A stretch of DNA of 64,000 nt from Bradyrhizobium sp. CCBAU 53338 (GTDB lineage: Bacteria > Pseudomonadota > Alphaproteobacteria > Rhizobiales > Xanthobacteraceae), in contig NZ_CP030048.1 in the NCBI RefSeq assembly GCF_015291665.1, positions 5,766,001 to 5,830,000 on the forward strand, given 5' to 3'. Positions 26,118 through 32,111 of the stretch are shown here, in pieces. The notes below the pieces were generated by a model. That model was not told the DNA's origin and ran no database searches. It worked only from the letters and a program-made list of their open reading frames with translations. Both the position numbers and the translations under genes were made by a program. Within the stretch, counting starts at the first letter, position 1. Every line of letters begins with the position of its first letter.

Positions 26118-26411
26118 CTAATCGAGACCACCGCGATCCTTCTTGATGATCGCTCGCAGATCGTCGGCGTACTCTTCGACGATGGCCAACCGATCCCGCT
26201 CCGGCTCGCCGATCGGCGCTTCCTCTATGAGGCCGTCCCATTCGCGCCAATGCGTCGGAAACACATATACGCGCGAACCGGTCTGTGAATTGACCCAGCC
26301 CCGAAGCACGCGGCGACACGGGAAGACCAGTGCGTGTACCTGTCCGGCGGTGTCGATGACCGCCAGTTGCAAATTGCGATCAAACGGTGCCGTTGCCGTG
26401 GAATTCCACAT
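26118..26411 (-). CDS. Hypothetical protein, 97 aa, behind hairpin element copy 1
   Basis: The ATG at 26411 starts a soluble 97-residue protein with no signal peptide (core: LQLAVIDTAGQVHALVFPCR, then RVYVFPTHWREWDGLIEEA). I do not recognise a domain. Its GGGAG ribosome binding site lies inside the 3' arm of hairpin 26415-26441. A GTG at 26459 is in frame, but the 16 codons it would add are element sequence. It follows the 124-residue gene at 26483 on the same strand by 71 bases. Confidence 0.6.
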   Translation of the reverse strand: MWNSTATAPFDRNLQLAVIDTAGQVHALVFPCRRVLRGWVNSQTGSRVYVFPTHWREWDGLIEEAPIGEPERDRLAIVEEYADDLRAIIKKDRGGLD

Positions 26412-26414
26412 GGC

Positions 26415-26480
26415 GCGCTCCCTCTTTGCAGGCGGGAGCGCGATCGGTCTCTCAGCCACCGACGCCTACGGGCAGAGCCA
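26415..26480 (-). promoter_or_regulatory. Repeated 5' hairpin element, copy 1
   Basis: Read on the minus strand: a conserved block CTGCCCGTAGGCGTCGGTGG, then CTGAGAGA, then an 8-bp perfect hairpin GCGCTCCC / GGGAGCGC (26415-26441). The 3' arm contains GGGAG, 6 bases before the ATG at 26411, so the ribosome binding site is base-paired. Three more copies occur at 29137, 29477 and 30290. Confidence 0.75.
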
Positions 26481-26482
26481 AA

Positions 26483-26857
26483 TCAGTCTATCAGATTTCG
26501 TCGGGGACCTGTGGAAATTGTTACGCTCGACGAGTTGATCTTCGCGCGCAGGCGGCGACAAGAATCTTCAAGCACCGTCTGCAGGTTTTCGCAGCCTATG
26601 AGCAGCCGCTCCGCATGTTCGCGCTCGGTTGTGCCGAAGGGATGACCGTTGCGAGCATTCCTGACAAGGTTCACCCTGTCACGGCCCTCCGTTGCTTTTC
26701 TCTCGACAAATTCGAGATTTTCCAGCTCATGCGCGAGCTTGTCCAACTCGGCGATCAGCAGCCCGGTCACGCCCGTTCGCTTGTCAGTCGTCAGATCGTT
26801 GCCGTTCAGAAGGCCGATGAAGTGATCCACATTGGCTCTTGCGATGAAACGGTGCAT
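26483..26857 (-). CDS. Hypothetical protein, 124 aa
   Basis: This soluble, helical, charged protein starts MHRFIARANVDHFIGLLNGN and continues with ELDKLAHELENLEFVERKA and a late LLIGCENLQTVLEDSCRRLR. I recall this as a recurrent bradyrhizobial family of unknown function often found among stress-related small genes. GGGGG precedes the ATG. It ends just before hairpin element copy 1 and the 97-residue gene, so the element would be intercistronic. Confidence 0.65.
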   Translation of the reverse strand: MHRFIARANVDHFIGLLNGNDLTTDKRTGVTGLLIAELDKLAHELENLEFVERKATEGRDRVNLVRNARNGHPFGTTEREHAERLLIGCENLQTVLEDSCRRLRAKINSSSVTISTGPRRNLID

Positions 26858-26887
26858 TGGACCCCCTGATCCATGCGTCTCGATGAT

Positions 26888-27049
26888 TCATTTTGCCGGT
26901 ACTTCAATCGCGTCCGTTCGGTCCGGTCGAAGTGACGTCCGCTCGACTCCGCAGGGCCGACAGAAGGGGCCGGAGCGAATTGGACGCACCTGGACCGTCA
27001 GCAGATTGAAATCATGATCAATATTGGCATGAGCGACGTAGCCGTCCAT
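26888..27049 (-). pseudogene. Probable truncated paralogue of the 124-aa gene
   Basis: An ATG at 27049 with a good ribosome binding site (GAGGGGAG, 4 bases before) opens 53 codons. The start MDGYVAHANIDHDFNLL closely resembles MHRFIARANVDHFIGLL of the next gene downstream, but after about 17 residues the similarity ends. I take it as a tandem copy whose 3' part was replaced. It could still make a short peptide. Confidence 0.45.
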
Positions 27050-27125
27050 CTGGCTCCCCTCTCTTGGACCGGGCTAGGTTAAGTCATCGATGCTCATTGC
27101 GGCCATAGCCGGGGTGCGCCGAAAT

Positions 27126-27139
27126 TTGATCGTGATCAA
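27126..27139 (+). promoter_or_regulatory. FixK/FNR-type operator
   Basis: TTGATCGTGATCAA is a perfect TTGAT-N4-ATCAA palindrome. A TATGAG hexamer at 27161 lies 31 bases from its centre, the geometry of a class II FNR/FixK promoter with the box near -41. It is 56 bases upstream of the Crp/Fnr-type gene at 27196, so that gene is probably controlled by oxygen level through FixK2 or by itself. Confidence 0.82.
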
Positions 27140-27195
27140 GTTCCGGTTCGACCATGACGCTATGAGAGATCAAAGCACCACGCGGACGCCGCAAG

Positions 27196-27912
27196 ATGAA
27201 GCATGCAACAGGGCCAGCAATTCACGCGGTCCATCCGTGGGACCCGGGCAATCCTGAGAAAGGTGAGCGCCATCAGCTGCTGAGCGACGATGAGCGCGCC
27301 AGGCTCGCAAAAATAGCGCAGATCGTACGCTTCGCCAAAGGCCAGGAAATTTACGGAGAAGGCGCGGTAGCAGATGCCGCATTCAACATCATCGACGGGG
27401 TGGTCGTGGCCTACCGCGCAGAGCACGTCATCTCGTTTCTTTACCCCGGCGACCTGTTCGGCCTGTCAGAGGAAGGGCAGTATGCCAACGCAACCAGAGC
27501 TGCGACACCGGTGACGGCTTACAAGATGCCGCTGGCCGCAATACGCCGCATCCTGGCCAATAACGCTGATCTCGACGTCAATCTCATCATAAAGCTTTGC
27601 GAAGAACTCCGAGAAGCCCAGCGCCATGCCGTTCTTCTCGCGCAGAGAAGAGCGGCAACGAGGCTTGCGATGTTCCTGGGGCTACAGGAACACCTGCAAG
27701 CGGCGCGAGGCGAGTCGATCTCCGAGATCCATCTCCAAATGGATCGCTCGAGCATTGCTGCCTATCTGGGACTGACCACCGCGGCACTGAGCCGAGCGTT
27801 TCGAGCGCTCATCTCACGGAAAATCATCACCTCGCGGAATCTCCACTTCGTGAAGGTCGTCGACCGGGACTCCTTCGTCAGGCTCGCCGATGCGCGCCCG
27901 GATGGGAATTGA
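27196..27912 (+). CDS. Crp/Fnr family transcriptional regulator
   Basis: The 238-residue protein has an N-terminal cyclic-nucleotide-binding-type sensor domain (VRFAKGQEIYGEGAVADAAF, ISFLYPGDLFGL) and a C-terminal winged helix (MDRSSIAAYLGLTTAALSRA). There is no cysteine at the N-terminus, so it is FixK-like and not a direct oxygen sensor. In the recognition helix the FNR/FixK motif E-x-x-S-R reads A-x-x-S-R: the Glu that contacts DNA in FNR is replaced by Ala. The gene carries a perfect FixK box in front. Confidence 0.92.
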   Translation: MKHATGPAIHAVHPWDPGNPEKGERHQLLSDDERARLAKIAQIVRFAKGQEIYGEGAVADAAFNIIDGVVVAYRAEHVISFLYPGDLFGLSEEGQYANATRAATPVTAYKMPLAAIRRILANNADLDVNLIIKLCEELREAQRHAVLLAQRRAATRLAMFLGLQEHLQAARGESISEIHLQMDRSSIAAYLGLTTAALSRAFRALISRKIITSRNLHFVKVVDRDSFVRLADARPDGN

Positions 27913-28000
27913 TTGCGATCAGGACGATGGGCTCAGGAGCCCTCCTGTTCGTGGCCTGGCAACCGAGTGAAACCCAAGCCTCGGGACGTGGAACTGAATT

Positions 28001-28228
28001 TCAGACAGCTTCTTTCGTCGTTTCATCTGCCGGCGCTCCAACCACGATCCTGCTGCAACCCTTGTCGAAATCGTGTTCGAGCAAAGTTCGTATAGCGGAC
28101 TGATAATCAGAAAGACGAGCCTGAATATATTGGCGTTCGAAATCCGTTAGATGCGTCTGAAGAAGACGATGGTAGCGGCGGATGTTGTTACGGTAAGCCT
28201 CGACAAGAGCGGTCCCCAGCTCGGTCAT
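28001..28228 (-). CDS. Small helical protein, 75 aa
   Basis: The ATG at 28228 with GGGAGGATGTC directly before it opens a 75-residue chain (MTELGTALVEAYRNNIRRYH, LLQTHLTDFERQYIQARL). It is helical and charged, with one Cys near the C-terminus. I recall similar short proteins of unknown function in Bradyrhizobium. A FixK-like box lies about 110 bases upstream, so microoxic control is possible. A longer frame to 28489 is open but runs into the dioxygenase fragment. Confidence 0.65.
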   Translation of the reverse strand: MTELGTALVEAYRNNIRRYHRLLQTHLTDFERQYIQARLSDYQSAIRTLLEHDFDKGCSRIVVGAPADETTKEAV

Positions 28229-28331
28229 GACATCCTCCCATGTTTTCTCGCAGGAGGTGTCACCGTGCAGTCGAGCCCGAACGGCGTTTTTGATCGAACT
28301 CAAATGGCTGGCGCCCGGATTCGGCTCATAG

Positions 28332-28345
28332 TTGACTATGATCAA
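28332..28345 (-). promoter_or_regulatory. FixK-like box
   Basis: TTGACTATGATCAA fits the FixK2 consensus TTGA-N6-TCAA with one mismatch to the symmetric TTGAT-N4-ATCAA. On the minus strand it reads TTGATCATAGTCAA. The nearest gene in a suitable direction is the 75-residue gene at 28228. I see no clear -10 hexamer, so this is less sure than the box at 27126. Confidence 0.45.
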
Positions 28346-28391
28346 GATTCCATCGACTGGTGGGCTGCCAAGCGATGTTGCGTTGAACCGT

Positions 28392-28783
28392 TCGGCCATC
28401 AATCCAGCGGAACGTTCAGACTGGTCCCCTTGACGATGATGCCGCCCCGGTTGCCGATCTCGATCGAACCGTAGCGCTGCCTGAAGCAATCGCGCAGCGG
28501 CCGGTCACCCTCCATGCTGAGCCAGAGGCGCAGCAGATGCCGCTTCTGGTTGGCATCGGGCCAGTCGCGAAATCCGGTTCGATCGTGCAGCAGAGCATGA
28601 TTGGCGACGAACTGCATGTCGCCGGGCTGAAGCCGCATGCCGAAGTGCAGCGCAGGATCATTTGCGAGCGCGTCGAAGAGATCGAGCGCCTCGACGTGCT
28701 CCGGCGTCAGTCTGAGTGCACCGGGAAAGCGCTGCGCGCTGTCCGATATACTGGCGTTGATAGAAGCCGGTCAGGACCCCGCA
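28392..28783 (-). pseudogene. Duplicated 3' fragment of the TauD/TfdA-like dioxygenase gene
   Basis: These about 392 bases repeat 31033-31425 almost base for base (about five substitutions and two single-base indels near the left fragment's 5' end). They encode the last ~125 residues of the dioxygenase (MRLQPGDMQFVANHALLHDR, KRHLLRLWLSMEGDRP, ending SLNVPLD). The rest of the gene is absent and the indels shift the frame, so it cannot make an enzyme. Confidence 0.88.
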
Positions 28784-28890
28784 GTTGCCGGCACCCGGTC
28801 CGGAAGTCGCCGGATGATTGTAGTCGTCATTGGCCCACGCGACGCCACCCCCTCGCCAGCACAGAACGCGTCCCACTTGTTGAGGTCGCC

Positions 28891-29133
28891 CTACTGCCAC
28901 CGAGTGACCTCGAAATTGAACCGAACCTGCATGACTGGACCCGCTGCATCCCTCACCTCTATCGCCATGCATCGCGTCGAAAAATGGTGGGCGCCGTGCA
29001 CGGCATCGCGGGCCATGTCGGCCAAGGACTTGGCTGCTTCTTCCTGCACATCCCTTAGATTCGAGAATTCCAGGCCTTCTTCGTCTAGAAGAAGAGCGTC
29101 TTCGTCGCGGAGGTCAAAAAAATACACGGTCAT
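28891..29133 (-). CDS. DUF6894 family protein (copy A)
   Basis: The ATG at 29133 opens an 80-residue protein with the DUF6894 pattern: aromatic start MTVYFFDLRDEDALLLDEEG, then a helix EEAAKSLADMARDAV, and a C-terminal strand AIEVRDAAGPVMQVRF. The family is abundant in Rhizobiales and has no known function. A hairpin (29137-29161) covers its GGGAG ribosome binding site. A GTG at 29178 is in frame but lies in element sequence. Confidence 0.75.
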   Translation of the reverse strand: MTVYFFDLRDEDALLLDEEGLEFSNLRDVQEEAAKSLADMARDAVHGAHHFSTRCMAIEVRDAAGPVMQVRFNFEVTRWQ

Positions 29134-29136
29134 GTT

Positions 29137-29220
29137 GCGCTCCCAATGCAGGCGGGAGCGCACGCCTCTCTCAGCCACCGACGCCTACTGGCAGGGCCTA
29201 GGTCGATGATGCGGGAACAA
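29137..29220 (-). promoter_or_regulatory. Repeated 5' hairpin element, copy 2
   Basis: On the minus strand: TTGTTCCCGCATCATCGACC, CTAGGCCCTGCCAGTAGGCG, TCGGTGGCTGAGAGAG, then the perfect 8-bp hairpin GCGCTCCC / GGGAGCGC (29137-29161). GGGAG ends 6 bases before the ATG of the DUF6894 gene. Compared with copy 1 the stretch between CTGAGAGA and the stem is one base shorter, which changes the reading frame but not the structure. Confidence 0.75.
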
Positions 29221-29308
29221 TACGCTTTGGCAGCACTCGTTGCTACGGAATTGGGTCACTGCCCAGCCAGCTGATGGTCGATGCAGCGAGGTTCAACTTA
29301 AGGCGGCC

Positions 29309-29518
29309 TTACTCCTCCCAGATCAGATTATGGCACTCCTTGCAGCGATAGACATTTACCACGGTACCTTTAGCCGTGTCCGGAACCGTTAGATAAAGTC
29401 GAGGGATTCCATCGCAAAGCGCGCAATGGGTTGGCGGTTCTTGCGATGAGGGCGGCTTTTGTTGCGTACTCAGAGCACACTCCCTCCAAAGGCGGGAGCG
29501 CGCGTCTCTCTCAGCCAC
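29309..29518 (-). CDS. Small zinc-ribbon-like protein
   Basis: The chain has two CxxC pairs (HCALCDGIPRL and YRCKECHNLIWEE) separated by VPDTAKGTVVNV, a compact zinc-ribbon layout seen in a bradyrhizobial family of unknown function. The only ordinary in-frame start is the GTG at 29518, which lies inside hairpin element copy 3; the first ~15 residues would then be translated element. A non-canonical or lost start closer to the CxxC domain is an alternative. 69 residues from the GTG. Confidence 0.6.
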   Translation of the reverse strand: MAERDARSRLWRECALSTQQKPPSSQEPPTHCALCDGIPRLYLTVPDTAKGTVVNVYRCKECHNLIWEE

Positions 29519-29560
29519 CGACGCCTACGGGCGGACCTAGGTCGGTGATGCGAGAACAAT
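29477..29560 (-). promoter_or_regulatory. Repeated 5' hairpin element, copy 3
   Basis: On the minus strand: TTGTTCTCGCATCACCGACC, CTAGGTCCGCCCGTAGGCG, TCGGTGGCTGAGAGAG, then GCGCTCCC paired with GGGAGTGT through two G-U pairs (29477-29501). The stem is kept although two bases of the 3' arm differ from copies 1 and 2. Unlike the other copies no ATG follows within 10 bases. Confidence 0.7.
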
Positions 29561-30048
29561 GTTCCTATTTTCGTTCGGTTGCTAGCGGATTAACTAGGAA
29601 CTGCCGGATTTAACTTAGGACACCTGACAAGTCGAATTGAGACACTGGGAAATTTGCAGGTGGCGGAGCAAGAGCGCCGCCCGCTTAAAACCAGCGCGAG
29701 CGGCGGCTTACCAGCCCCGGGAGGGAGATTGTAAAATCCCGATACCATAATGTCTGCACGCGCCGTGCAAAGGTTCAAGAAGCCCCGCGAGGAAGTGCAA
29801 GACAATGGAGGCAGTGAGGGAAATAGCCTCTATTTGACCTGATCATCGCTGGGCTCTTAGCGCGGCTGCTGAAATCGGGCGATGTATGGCCCGAGCTGTA
29901 GCGTAACCTTTGGCTCCAGCTATTAGACTGGAGGGGCGGCTTCAGGCTAATCCGCAAAGACGCCGGGACGGAGCGGACTCCGTCTCTGCCGAAATCACCA
30001 ATGCCGGGCGTTACGCACCAATAAAAGAGGCCGTCAACTGAGGCGGCC
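29561..30048. other. Non-coding stretch
   Basis: I see no gene. Short open frames here have neither a ribosome binding site nor recognisable content. The segment CGAATTGAGACACTGGGAA at 29633 may be a scrap of an insertion-sequence end, but no partner was found. Confidence 0.4.
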
Positions 30049-30285
30049 TTAGTGCCTGGTGCTCGCGTTCCGATAGATTATGGAAACGCAGAACAAGCGT
30101 GCAGCCGTCGAGCGCACTTCCACGGCCAAATCGGGCCGCTCGCCTTTGAAGACCGATTCCCTTGCAATACCGGTCAGTGTTTGCATCGCTTCGACTTCGG
30201 CGGCTTTGAGATTGGGCAGGCGCAGGCCCTCCTCATCCGCAAAGAACTCGCGGCCACTTTGGATGTCAAAGAAATAGCGTTCCAT
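30049..30285 (-). CDS. DUF6894 family protein (copy B)
   Basis: The ATG at 30285 opens 78 residues: MERYFFDIQSGREFFADEEG, the helix EVEAMQTLTGIARESV and DLAVEVRSTAARLFCVSI. It matches copy A at 28891 in layout but not closely in sequence, so the two are old paralogues. Its GGAG ribosome binding site lies in the 3' arm of hairpin 30290-30318. Function unknown. Confidence 0.75.
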   Translation of the reverse strand: MERYFFDIQSGREFFADEEGLRLPNLKAAEVEAMQTLTGIARESVFKGERPDLAVEVRSTAARLFCVSIIYRNASTRH

Positions 30286-30289
30286 CACG

Positions 30290-30379
30290 ACGCTCCATCT
30301 CCATGTAGGCGGGAGCGCGATCAGTCTCTCTGCCACCGATGCCTACGGGCGGAGCCTCGACCGGTGATAGGACAACAAT
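30290..30379 (-). promoter_or_regulatory. Repeated 5' hairpin element, copy 4
   Basis: On the minus strand: TTGTTGTCCTATCACCGG, GGCTCCGCCCGTAGGCATCG, GTGGCAGAGAGA, then GCGCTCC paired with GGAGCGT (one G-U) across a 15-base loop, 30290-30318. GGAG ends 7 bases before the ATG at 30285. It is the most diverged copy, yet the stem and the ribosome-site overlap are kept. Confidence 0.7.
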
Positions 30380-31039: not shown

Positions 31040-32111
31040 TCAATCCAGCGGAACGTTCAGACTGGTCCCCTTGACGATGATGCCGCCCCGGTTGCCGATC
31101 TCGATCGAACCGTAGCGCTGCCTGAAGCAATCGGGCAGCGGCCGGTCACCCTCCATGCTGAGCCAGAGGCGCAGCAGATGCCGCTTCTGGTTGGCATCGG
31201 GCCAGTCGCGAAATCCGGTCCGATCGTGCAGCAGAGCATGATTGTAGACGAACTGCATGTCGCCGGGCTGAAGCCGCATGCCGAAGTGCAGCGCAGGATC
31301 ATTTGCGAGCGCGTCGAAGAGATTGAGCGCCTCGACGTGCTCCGGCGTCAGTCTGAGTGCACCGGGAAAGCGCTGCGCGCTGTCGATATACTGGCGTTGA
31401 TAGAAGCCGGTCAGGAACCCCGCATGCCAGTTCAGCACCGGGATTTCGAGATATGGCTTCTCGTTCTCCGGCACCTCGCCGCGGCGATCCGTCGCGATGG
31501 GATCGAACAAGAGAGCGGCAAGGTCGGGACGCCTGTCGAACATCTCGTTGTAGATGGTCGACGTGCTGACAAGAAGGGAATCCCCTCCCTCCATGGCCTC
31601 GCGAATGCACAACAATCCGACCACGTCGGACGAGTCCGTGTGGAATGTCTGCCGTTCCGAGGTCTGATAAATCCTGACGTTCGGATCCCTCGCGTCGGCG
31701 CCGACGTCGCGGACGTGACCGAGAATGTGGCCCGCTGCATTTTGCGACCGTGCCGATCCGAGATGCGCGCCCACGCCGCAAAATATCGTCGCGGCGAATT
31801 CCTGGCTGTAGTTCGCCACCGGGAGCCCGCGGATGACTTCGAAGCCAAGACCACAGCAGTCGTTTCTTGAGGCCTTCCAGGTGCGCACCGAATTGGGGAA
31901 GCGGAAACCTTTCCTTGGTGATCTCGGCGATGTTCTTGCTCCGGCCAAGGTAGGCCTCAGCCGCGCTCTCGAGTTCCGCTATCTCGCTTGTCCCGAGTGT
32001 CACCAGCCATCGATCAGGCTTGGCTTTCATCTCGGCGCCGAGCCAGGCCGACGGGATGTCGATCTTCCCTGAAGGGCGATTGATCGCGCGGGGCGCGGAG
32101 ACATCGTTCAT
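31040..32111 (-). pseudogene. TauD/TfdA-family dioxygenase, frameshifted
   Basis: Alpha-ketoglutarate- and Fe(II)-dependent dioxygenases of this family hydroxylate varied substrates. The N-terminal part (32111 to about 31865; AELESAAEAYLGRSKNIAEI, FPLPQFGAHLEGLKK) and the rest (GLGFEVIRGLPV onward, iron ligands in RQTFHTDSSDVVG and KRHLLRLWL, IYQTSERQTFHTD) are in different frames. The shift is near 31862, within CTGCTGTGGTCTTGG: one extra base or two missing. Otherwise the ~355-codon sequence is intact, so the loss is recent or a sequencing error. Its last 0.4 kb is duplicated at 28392. Confidence 0.85.

Follow-up and report, generated by a model that had tools for sequence, protein, structure and literature searches.

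A conserved 5' leader with a predicted buried Shine-Dalgarno sequence precedes small-protein and regulator genes in Bradyrhizobium and other alphaproteobacteria

In SAM-II riboswitches, unpaired bases are conserved, the loops make tertiary contacts, and the Shine-Dalgarno sequence is occluded; the targets of riboswitches usually lie within one pathway. The sequence CUGAGA is part of the thiamine-binding core of the TPP riboswitch (RF00059). Here, we describe a leader element that occurs four times in a 64,000-nucleotide (nt) stretch of Bradyrhizobium sp. CCBAU 53338 (NZ_CP030048.1, positions 5,766,001 to 5,830,000; hereafter the window, numbered from its first base). The best reading is that it represents a new leader family, matching no Rfam 15 family. 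In the best-supported reading of its function, it would act as a Shine-Dalgarno-sequestering leader, which is a known kind, and the use of one leader for so many unrelated genes would be what is unusual.

No Rfam 15 family matched at its gathering score in the window. At an E value of ≤10, matches of 9.0 and 5.8 bits lay over copy 1 and one of 15.7 bits overlapped copy 4, all on the opposite strand and far below the cut-off. At 16 other loci, no Rfam match was present at the element at an E value of ≤1. ROSE (RF00435) is similar in that it is a 5' leader in the same genome that pairs the Shine-Dalgarno sequence, with a model of similar length (94 positions). It differs in that its model did not match at the element, which has a GC-rich stem, an unpaired box, a loop-loop helix, and no predicted melting. 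The three ROSE matches of the genome that exceed the Rfam cut-off (C1:2102882, 2148528, and 2151725) lie elsewhere, not at the leader.

The element also shares a riboswitch-like trait, a conserved structured RNA in the 5' leader adjoining the gene. SAM-II (the metA element) is likewise a small cis-acting leader ahead of a gene, according to the outline of PMC1273637. In contrast to SAM-II-type riboswitches, the present element has no Rfam match and precedes genes for 228 proteins in 17 clusters plus 48 singletons. CUGAGA is common to the element and the TPP riboswitch; no TPP match was obtained at an E value of ≤10, and the six-base likeness may be due to chance. According to the passages available from PMC2864571, Rhizobiales-1, Rhizobiales-2, and Methylobacterium-1 are structured RNA candidates that come from these groups of bacteria as well. 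The Rfam models of the latter two did not match at the element. Rhizobiales-1 has no Rfam number and is set apart by description only, its table mark in that source ("?, n, N") being read as not cis-regulatory. The leader is not described in the available passages of PMC4842269, PMC11109978, PMC8632094, PMC6429828, and PMC2864571 or in the outline of PMC1273637. Papers that print the core strings concern other topics, judging by their titles and the openings of their abstracts; subscription literature lay outside this search, and a prior description there is possible. A literature search for DUF6894, with the same exclusion of subscription literature, found nothing.

From 5' to 3', the element consists of a promoter-like region, a stem (P1), an unpaired box CUGAGAGA, a spacer, a second stem (P2) ending in the Shine-Dalgarno arm, and the start codon. 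P1 is formed by UCACCGGC/GUCGGUGG (UCACCGG/CCGGUGR), with a loop of free length. In P2, GCGCUCCCGCCU (GCGCUCC) is followed by a loop and the 3' arm GGAGCGC, the GGAG of which is the Shine-Dalgarno sequence; this confirmed the original prediction, made from the DNA sequence of the window, that the 3' arm of the hairpin is the ribosome binding site. The spacer from GAGAG to CTCC measured 9 to 11 nt in 210 of 236 copies, and the gap from GGAG to the start codon was 6 or 7 nt in 187 of the 236 anchored copies. In 110 hits selected by a covariance model (R1), the successive bases of the box were conserved as follows: C in 109, U in 91, G in 109, A in 106, G in 110, A in 107, G in 110, and A in 92. 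Thus, CUGAGAGA and GCUCCCGCC were near-invariant in these copies, which are of the kind that the model favors, and the box was near-invariant across orders.

Two findings had been named beforehand as refuting the proposal, a lack of covariation and copies lying away from gene starts; both checks favored it. If the element is a leader, its copies should lie at gene starts. GGAG stood 4 to 9 nt ahead of the start of an open reading frame (ORF) of at least 30 codons in 236 of 294 distinct elements, compared with 10 of 276 CTCCCGC sites that lack the box. A start codon with a purine-rich site was found at the end of the match in 93 of the 110 model hits and at 62 of 2200 random places (2.8%). Seven of eight plasmid records found were opened, and in five of them an annotated gene starts within ~25 nt of the match; one of the other two is unannotated there, and one has its next annotated gene ~500 nt further on. 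Identical stretches were collapsed in the 236/294-copy set, as well as in the comparison of element and background genes and in the 296-copy loop-loop set described below.

It had been proposed that selection acts on the RNA fold rather than on an encoded peptide, and the covariation of P1 and a random reading frame both support this. In alignment A6 (110 distinct copies from members of the family, order, and class, drawn from 100 sources), 96.8% of the P1 cells were paired. Double-change cells numbered 89, compared with 24.8 ± 4.0 after shuffling and 4 to 18 in slid registers, and changes on both sides occurred at seven of the eight pairs. A covarying stem is thus present ahead of many, mostly small, genes, as had been anticipated. 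Across lineages, P1 takes forms such as CATCGC/GCGATG (locus L048), CGTCGAG/CTCGACG (L105), and GGCGTT/AACGCC (L159). Without a fitted alignment, the own 3' arm paired with the upstream region better than did the arms of other copies in 213 of 236 cases. P2 has little room to covary: the 5' arm has a fixed sequence, and the 3' arm doubles as the Shine-Dalgarno sequence. With the latter anchored by the start codon, the second outer pair showed compensation (Fisher P = 5.0e-4, uncorrected for relatedness). Bases that could extend the pairing after GGAG were present in 56% of 163 element genes and in 10% of 467 other genes from the loci collected around elements.

The two hairpins are probably further connected by their loops. 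In the P1 loop, the 3' portion reads (U)AGGC, which matches by complementarity the GCCU(G) of the P2 loop (UAGGC:GCCUG). In 296 copies, a set that takes in loci from a viral collection and some loose matches of doubtful status (e.g., L082 and L358), 1312 of 1480 cells were paired, compared with 1269.0 ± 5.7 when partners were permuted, and none of 2000 permutations reached the observed value. After thinning to 80, 70, and 60% identity (205, 157, and 93 copies), it was reached by 0, 0, and 8 of 2000. Registers slid by 1 or 2 showed no excess. All six possible pairs were formed in 189 of the 296 copies and at least five in 243. Pairs changed but kept include A-U to G-C (17 copies), GAGCG:CGCUC (L196 and L210), and AAGCG:CGCUU (L328), while 11 of the 34 double changes were non-Watson-Crick. 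GGC sits a few nucleotides further from P1 in L288, L290, L293, L294, and L295, and the GGCG stretch is absent in rows including L267, L297, and L298. Since the loops covary, the P1 and P2 hairpins probably form a kissing contact, leaving CUGAGAGA in the linker that joins them. Comparison of copies shows P1, P2, the loop-loop helix, and the box, as it does the link to gene starts and the distribution given below.

The start of the RNA was approached through the 141 copies with a recognizable ATCACC-type start. Numbered from the A of ATCACC, the upstream stretches have T at -35 in 57%, G at -33 in 52%, and A at -30 in 51%, followed by A at -11 in 52%, T at -9 in 50%, and T at -7 in 53%. Given this -35/-10-like conservation, transcription probably begins at the A of AUCACC, that is, at P1. 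An EcfG promoter (GGAAC-N15..19-CGTT) was also considered and was present in only 3 of the 141 regions.

MAFFT alignments A1 (117 of 132 listed copies), A3 (58 of 75), and A4 left the P2 3' arm unaligned. R1 was therefore built from A5, in which all 32 copies have GGAG at the same fixed offset; the inner P2 pairs of the model are constant because of how it was built. The 32 sequences come mainly from other genomes; window copy 4 is among them, and copies 1 to 3 are not. At an E value of ≤0.1, R1 found four matches in the window, all on the minus strand and exactly the four copies originally reported. These, their parts, and the genes behind them are as follows (aa, amino acids).
26413..26493, minus strand: leader copy 1 (R1, 59.6 bits), which precedes the 97-aa gene; most of the P1 5' arm is lost
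26448..26455, minus strand: copy 1 box CTGAGAGA
26434..26442, minus strand: copy 1 P2 5' arm CGCGCTCCC, anti-Shine-Dalgarno
26414..26422, minus strand: copy 1 P2 3' arm GGGAGCGCG, which contains the Shine-Dalgarno sequence
26118..26411, minus strand: 97-aa protein after copy 1, no family over the cut-off
29135..29212, minus strand: leader copy 2 (R1, 75.7 bits)
29202-29208 and 29176-29182, minus strand: copy 2 P1, CATCGAC/GTCGGTG
29167-29174, minus strand: copy 2 box CTGAGAGA
29154-29162 and 29136-29144, minus strand: copy 2 P2
28891..29133, minus strand: 80-aa DUF6894 protein after copy 2 (PF21834, E 3.9e-17)
29475..29551, minus strand: leader copy 3 (R1, 66.4 bits)
29541-29547 and 29516-29522, minus strand: copy 3 P1, CACCGAC/GTCGGTG
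29507-29514, minus strand: copy 3 box CTGAGAGA
29494-29503 and 29475-29484, minus strand: copy 3 P2, including G-U pairs
29309..29473, minus strand: 54-aa CxxC protein, zinc-ribbon-like, after copy 3, no Pfam match over the cut-off
30288..30370, minus strand: leader copy 4 (R1, 84.4 bits)
30360-30366 and 30334-30340, minus strand: copy 4 P1, CACCGGT/ATCGGTG
30325-30332, minus strand: copy 4 box CAGAGAGA
30312-30317 and 30291-30296, minus strand: copy 4 P2, CGCTCC/GGAGCG
30049..30285, minus strand: 78-aa DUF6894 protein after copy 4 (PF21834, E 6.6e-16)

The P2 pairing GCGCTCCC/GGGAGCGC had been assigned correctly, with the Shine-Dalgarno sequence 6, 6, and 7 nt ahead of ATG in copies 1, 2, and 4. 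An upstream pairing had also been suggested. This stem exists, but its register had been misplaced: it is not CYGCC/GGTGG but P1, TCACCGGC/GTCGGTGG. In copy 1, the best remaining P1 pairing is ACTGAT/GTCGGT, and the 5' arm is intact in the relatives L017, L024, and L160. Copy 3 probably starts a gene as well, at a CTG 6 nt past GGAG; its relatives have TTG (L100) and ATG (L143). With up to two mismatches, the short core GGTGGCTGAGAGA occurs four times in the window; 1.9 occurrences were expected, and four were reached in 14 of 100 shuffles. Thus, it is the whole element and not the core that exceeds chance.

The genes behind the leader are unrelated and mostly small, in line with what the four window copies had indicated. 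The 228 distinct proteins formed 65 single-linkage clusters (17 multi-member and 48 singletons) with a median length of 72 aa. In the element search behind these clusters, 9 of 237 rows were double-counted where the spacer reads CCGAGAG; the 236-copy recount is free of these. The largest clusters were PDTFLGRK small proteins (71), Crp/Fnr-like regulators (23), DUF6894 (21), CxxC (13), and QAERH (9), followed by smaller ones. Among Pfam assignments for 115 of 135 proteins, DUF6894 accounted for 16, HTH_Crp_2 for 11, and cNMP_binding for 10, and a single response regulator, a HisKA_2 kinase (PhyK-like by NCBIfam), and an extracytoplasmic function (ECF) sigma factor with a PhyR_sigma2 match (L101, Microvirga lupini) were also present. 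Two more response-regulator-like proteins were recognized by eye behind elements (L387 and L391). The 97-aa gene keeps its leader in several genomes (L004, which is window copy 1, L017, L024, L117, and L160). Head-to-head pairs of elements, with boxes 151 to 195 nt apart, were noted at L105, L129, L237, and L242. At L380, Crp/Fnr-like and DUF6894-like genes diverge with an element ahead of each (by eye).

In the Bradyrhizobium genome as a whole, R1 gave six minus-strand matches with E values below 1e-6 and five further matches at E 6 to 9 that were chance-like. Two of the six lie beyond the window. At C1:2367825 the box has decayed; at C1:3731596 the element stands ahead of a gene that encodes a 56-aa CxxC protein and overlaps a DUF6894 gene. 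The genome has 12 DUF6894 genes, two directly behind an element and one second behind; separately, DUF6894 genes lie a few kilobases from ROSE matches (C1:2098697 and C1:2105566). The element was detected in 35 of 60 genomes of the genus (blastn) and in 61 of 149 genomes of the family, where 27 of 47 genera had matches. At the phylum level, 33 of 398 genomes had matches, three of these outside the class and weak. The Bradyrhizobium genome itself is counted in every tally, and the counts are lower bounds because few candidates were scored per genome. The three non-alphaproteobacterial matches (G860, G942, and G973; E 2.4e-4 to 0.007) lacked the two-box core within two substitutions and were judged false. 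The pattern GGCTGAGAGA-N2..9-CGCTCCCGCCT was present in at least 120 stretches, and those listed include Microvirga, Methylobacterium, Sphingomonas, and Reyranella. The names among the matches listed are, we take it, alphaproteobacteria or plain "Proteobacteria," with one "Frankia sp. RB7" whose label is suspect. In a viral collection, 28 of 39 contigs with a looser pattern matched R1 (31 matches, L333-L371); these are possibly prophages or host DNA.

Both prediction and comparison place the Shine-Dalgarno sequence in a base-paired state within the leader. At 37°C, the predicted probability that GGAG is unpaired had a median of 0.0030 over the 236 elements and was <0.2 in 187. For 237 other genes with GGAG, taken from the loci collected around elements rather than from whole genomes, the predicted median was 0.34, and 26% were <0.2. 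The predicted stability of P2 had a median of -13 kcal/mol.

Such burial could also serve a static leader, in which P1 protects the 5' end from decay and P2 holds translation at a low, steady rate with no switch. P1 begins within a few nucleotides of the inferred transcription start, and low output may suffice for the many small targets. However, a damper needs neither CUGAGAGA, near-invariant across orders, nor the loop-loop helix, and we regard this explanation as unlikely.

Less likely still is an RNA thermometer, in which warming would melt P2 and free the Shine-Dalgarno sequence as in ROSE. The hairpin location of the Shine-Dalgarno sequence, the sharing of one leader by many genes, and the presence of ROSE in the genome are all compatible with it. 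The main grounds for disfavoring it are the strong, GC-rich P2 and the conserved unpaired box, since melting needs neither this box nor the loop-loop helix; ROSE itself has no Rfam match at the element. The four window copies showed a predicted Shine-Dalgarno opening of <0.03 throughout 20 to 60°C, but the same calculation gave the three ROSE controls from this genome a rise of only 0.20-0.33 to 0.28-0.46 and therefore tests thermometers poorly. One shared translational switch, with a thermometer as an option, had been proposed originally; the part that stands is a single leader common to many unrelated, mostly small, genes, whereas the thermometer option is unsupported.

It is very improbable that the element is a dispersed or mobile repeat, of the repetitive extragenic palindromic (REP)-like type, lying near genes by chance. 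Several copies occur per genome (up to 12 in one by blastn), window copies 2 and 3 are 93 and 97% identical to a composite query, and the element occurs in contigs classed as viral. Against this stand the linkage to gene starts (80% versus 4% and 85% versus 3% in controls), the fixed orientation and spacing, the covariation, and the retention of the leader by the 97-aa gene family. Translation of an upstream peptide or N-terminal extension from the GTG of GGTGGCTGAGAGA (MAER...) is hardly credible: this frame runs into the gene in all four window copies, but GTG or ATG stands at this position in 188 copies and shares the frame of the gene in 59 of them (P = 0.59), about one third, so the window pattern is chance; 10 of the 59 contain a stop, and many copies carry a non-start triplet instead (GCG in 26 and CCG in 5 of 236).

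We consider it likely that the element is a conserved ~80-nt 5' leader family that controls translation initiation, closed by default and opened by a factor, ahead of small-protein and regulator genes. Transcription would start at the A of AUCACC, and the RNA would fold into P1, the unpaired CUGAGAGA, and P2, in which GCGCUCC would pair with the Shine-Dalgarno arm GGAGCGC right ahead of the start codon. The loop-loop helix UAGGC:GCCUG would tie the two hairpins to each other, and CUGAGAGA would lie in the strand that connects them. Because the predicted folds keep the site closed, weak translation may be the default. A near-invariant unpaired box between two loop-paired hairpins suggests recognition by a factor. 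Such a factor would read CUGAGAGA, loosen the fold, and set translation; it may be a small molecule, a protein that binds RNA, or another RNA acting in trans.

Several observations weigh against this interpretation. The strict rule of Shine-Dalgarno sequence plus start codon fails in 58 of 294 elements, four Reyranella-type elements (L048, L054, L069, and L097) have no Shine-Dalgarno arm, and the predicted opening of the Shine-Dalgarno sequence reaches 0.2 or more in 49 of the 236 anchored copies. Alignment A6 was fitted to the structure of the model, so its counts lean towards that structure, and the shuffle and permutation controls ignore relatedness, which slid registers keep. For P2, covariation at the outer pairs was modest (22 double-change cells compared with 11.6 ± 2.8 shuffled and up to 13 slid), pairs with changes on both sides were no more numerous than in shuffles, the anchored pairing d1-d5 taken per position was barely above independence, and the inner arm is nearly constant. 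Beyond the family, the element was undetected in most genomes sampled (order, found in 25 of 297; class, 12 of 289; strict filters). No conserved alternative open fold was found, and the loop-loop helix looks compatible with P2. No trans-acting RNA candidate emerged from a search for complements of GCUCCCGCCU: the genome contains 28 occurrences of AGGCGGGAGC, including 5 that are antisense to elements, and 44 of the reversed control.

A bolder proposal can be put forward only tentatively. The leader may constitute a class-wide alphaproteobacterial riboregulon, in which one sensor RNA with CUGAGAGA as its reading head has been copied ahead of many unrelated genes, so that one shared intracellular signal would govern the translation of small stress-type proteins together with that of Crp/Fnr regulators, single-domain response regulators, a PhyK-like kinase, and an ECF sigma factor. 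If true, alphaproteobacteria that fix nitrogen or live with plants would carry, at several copies per genome, a sizeable regulatory RNA family that Rfam 15 lacks. Many small proteins of obscure function (DUF6894 and the PDTFLGRK cluster) would then be tied to one signal with stress and redox regulators. As the motif is compact, the orphan signal would be directly searchable.

Three other features were observed among the window copies. A gene for a 238-aa Crp/Fnr-type regulator (27196-27912, plus strand; PF00027 and PF13545; FixK-like below the NCBIfam cut-off) lies between copies 1 and 2; elsewhere, Crp/Fnr genes are frequent targets of the same leader. A weak CRISPR-DR33 match (29985-30018, plus strand; 20.7 bits against a cut-off of 39, E 0.18) is probably due to chance. 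On the minus strand, the 3' portion of a single gene is present twice, at 28399-28972 and 31040-31948, with a shared C-terminal MRLQPGDMQFV...; one copy is a 302-aa ORF, and the other, which adjoins leader copy 2, is shortened and split over several frames.

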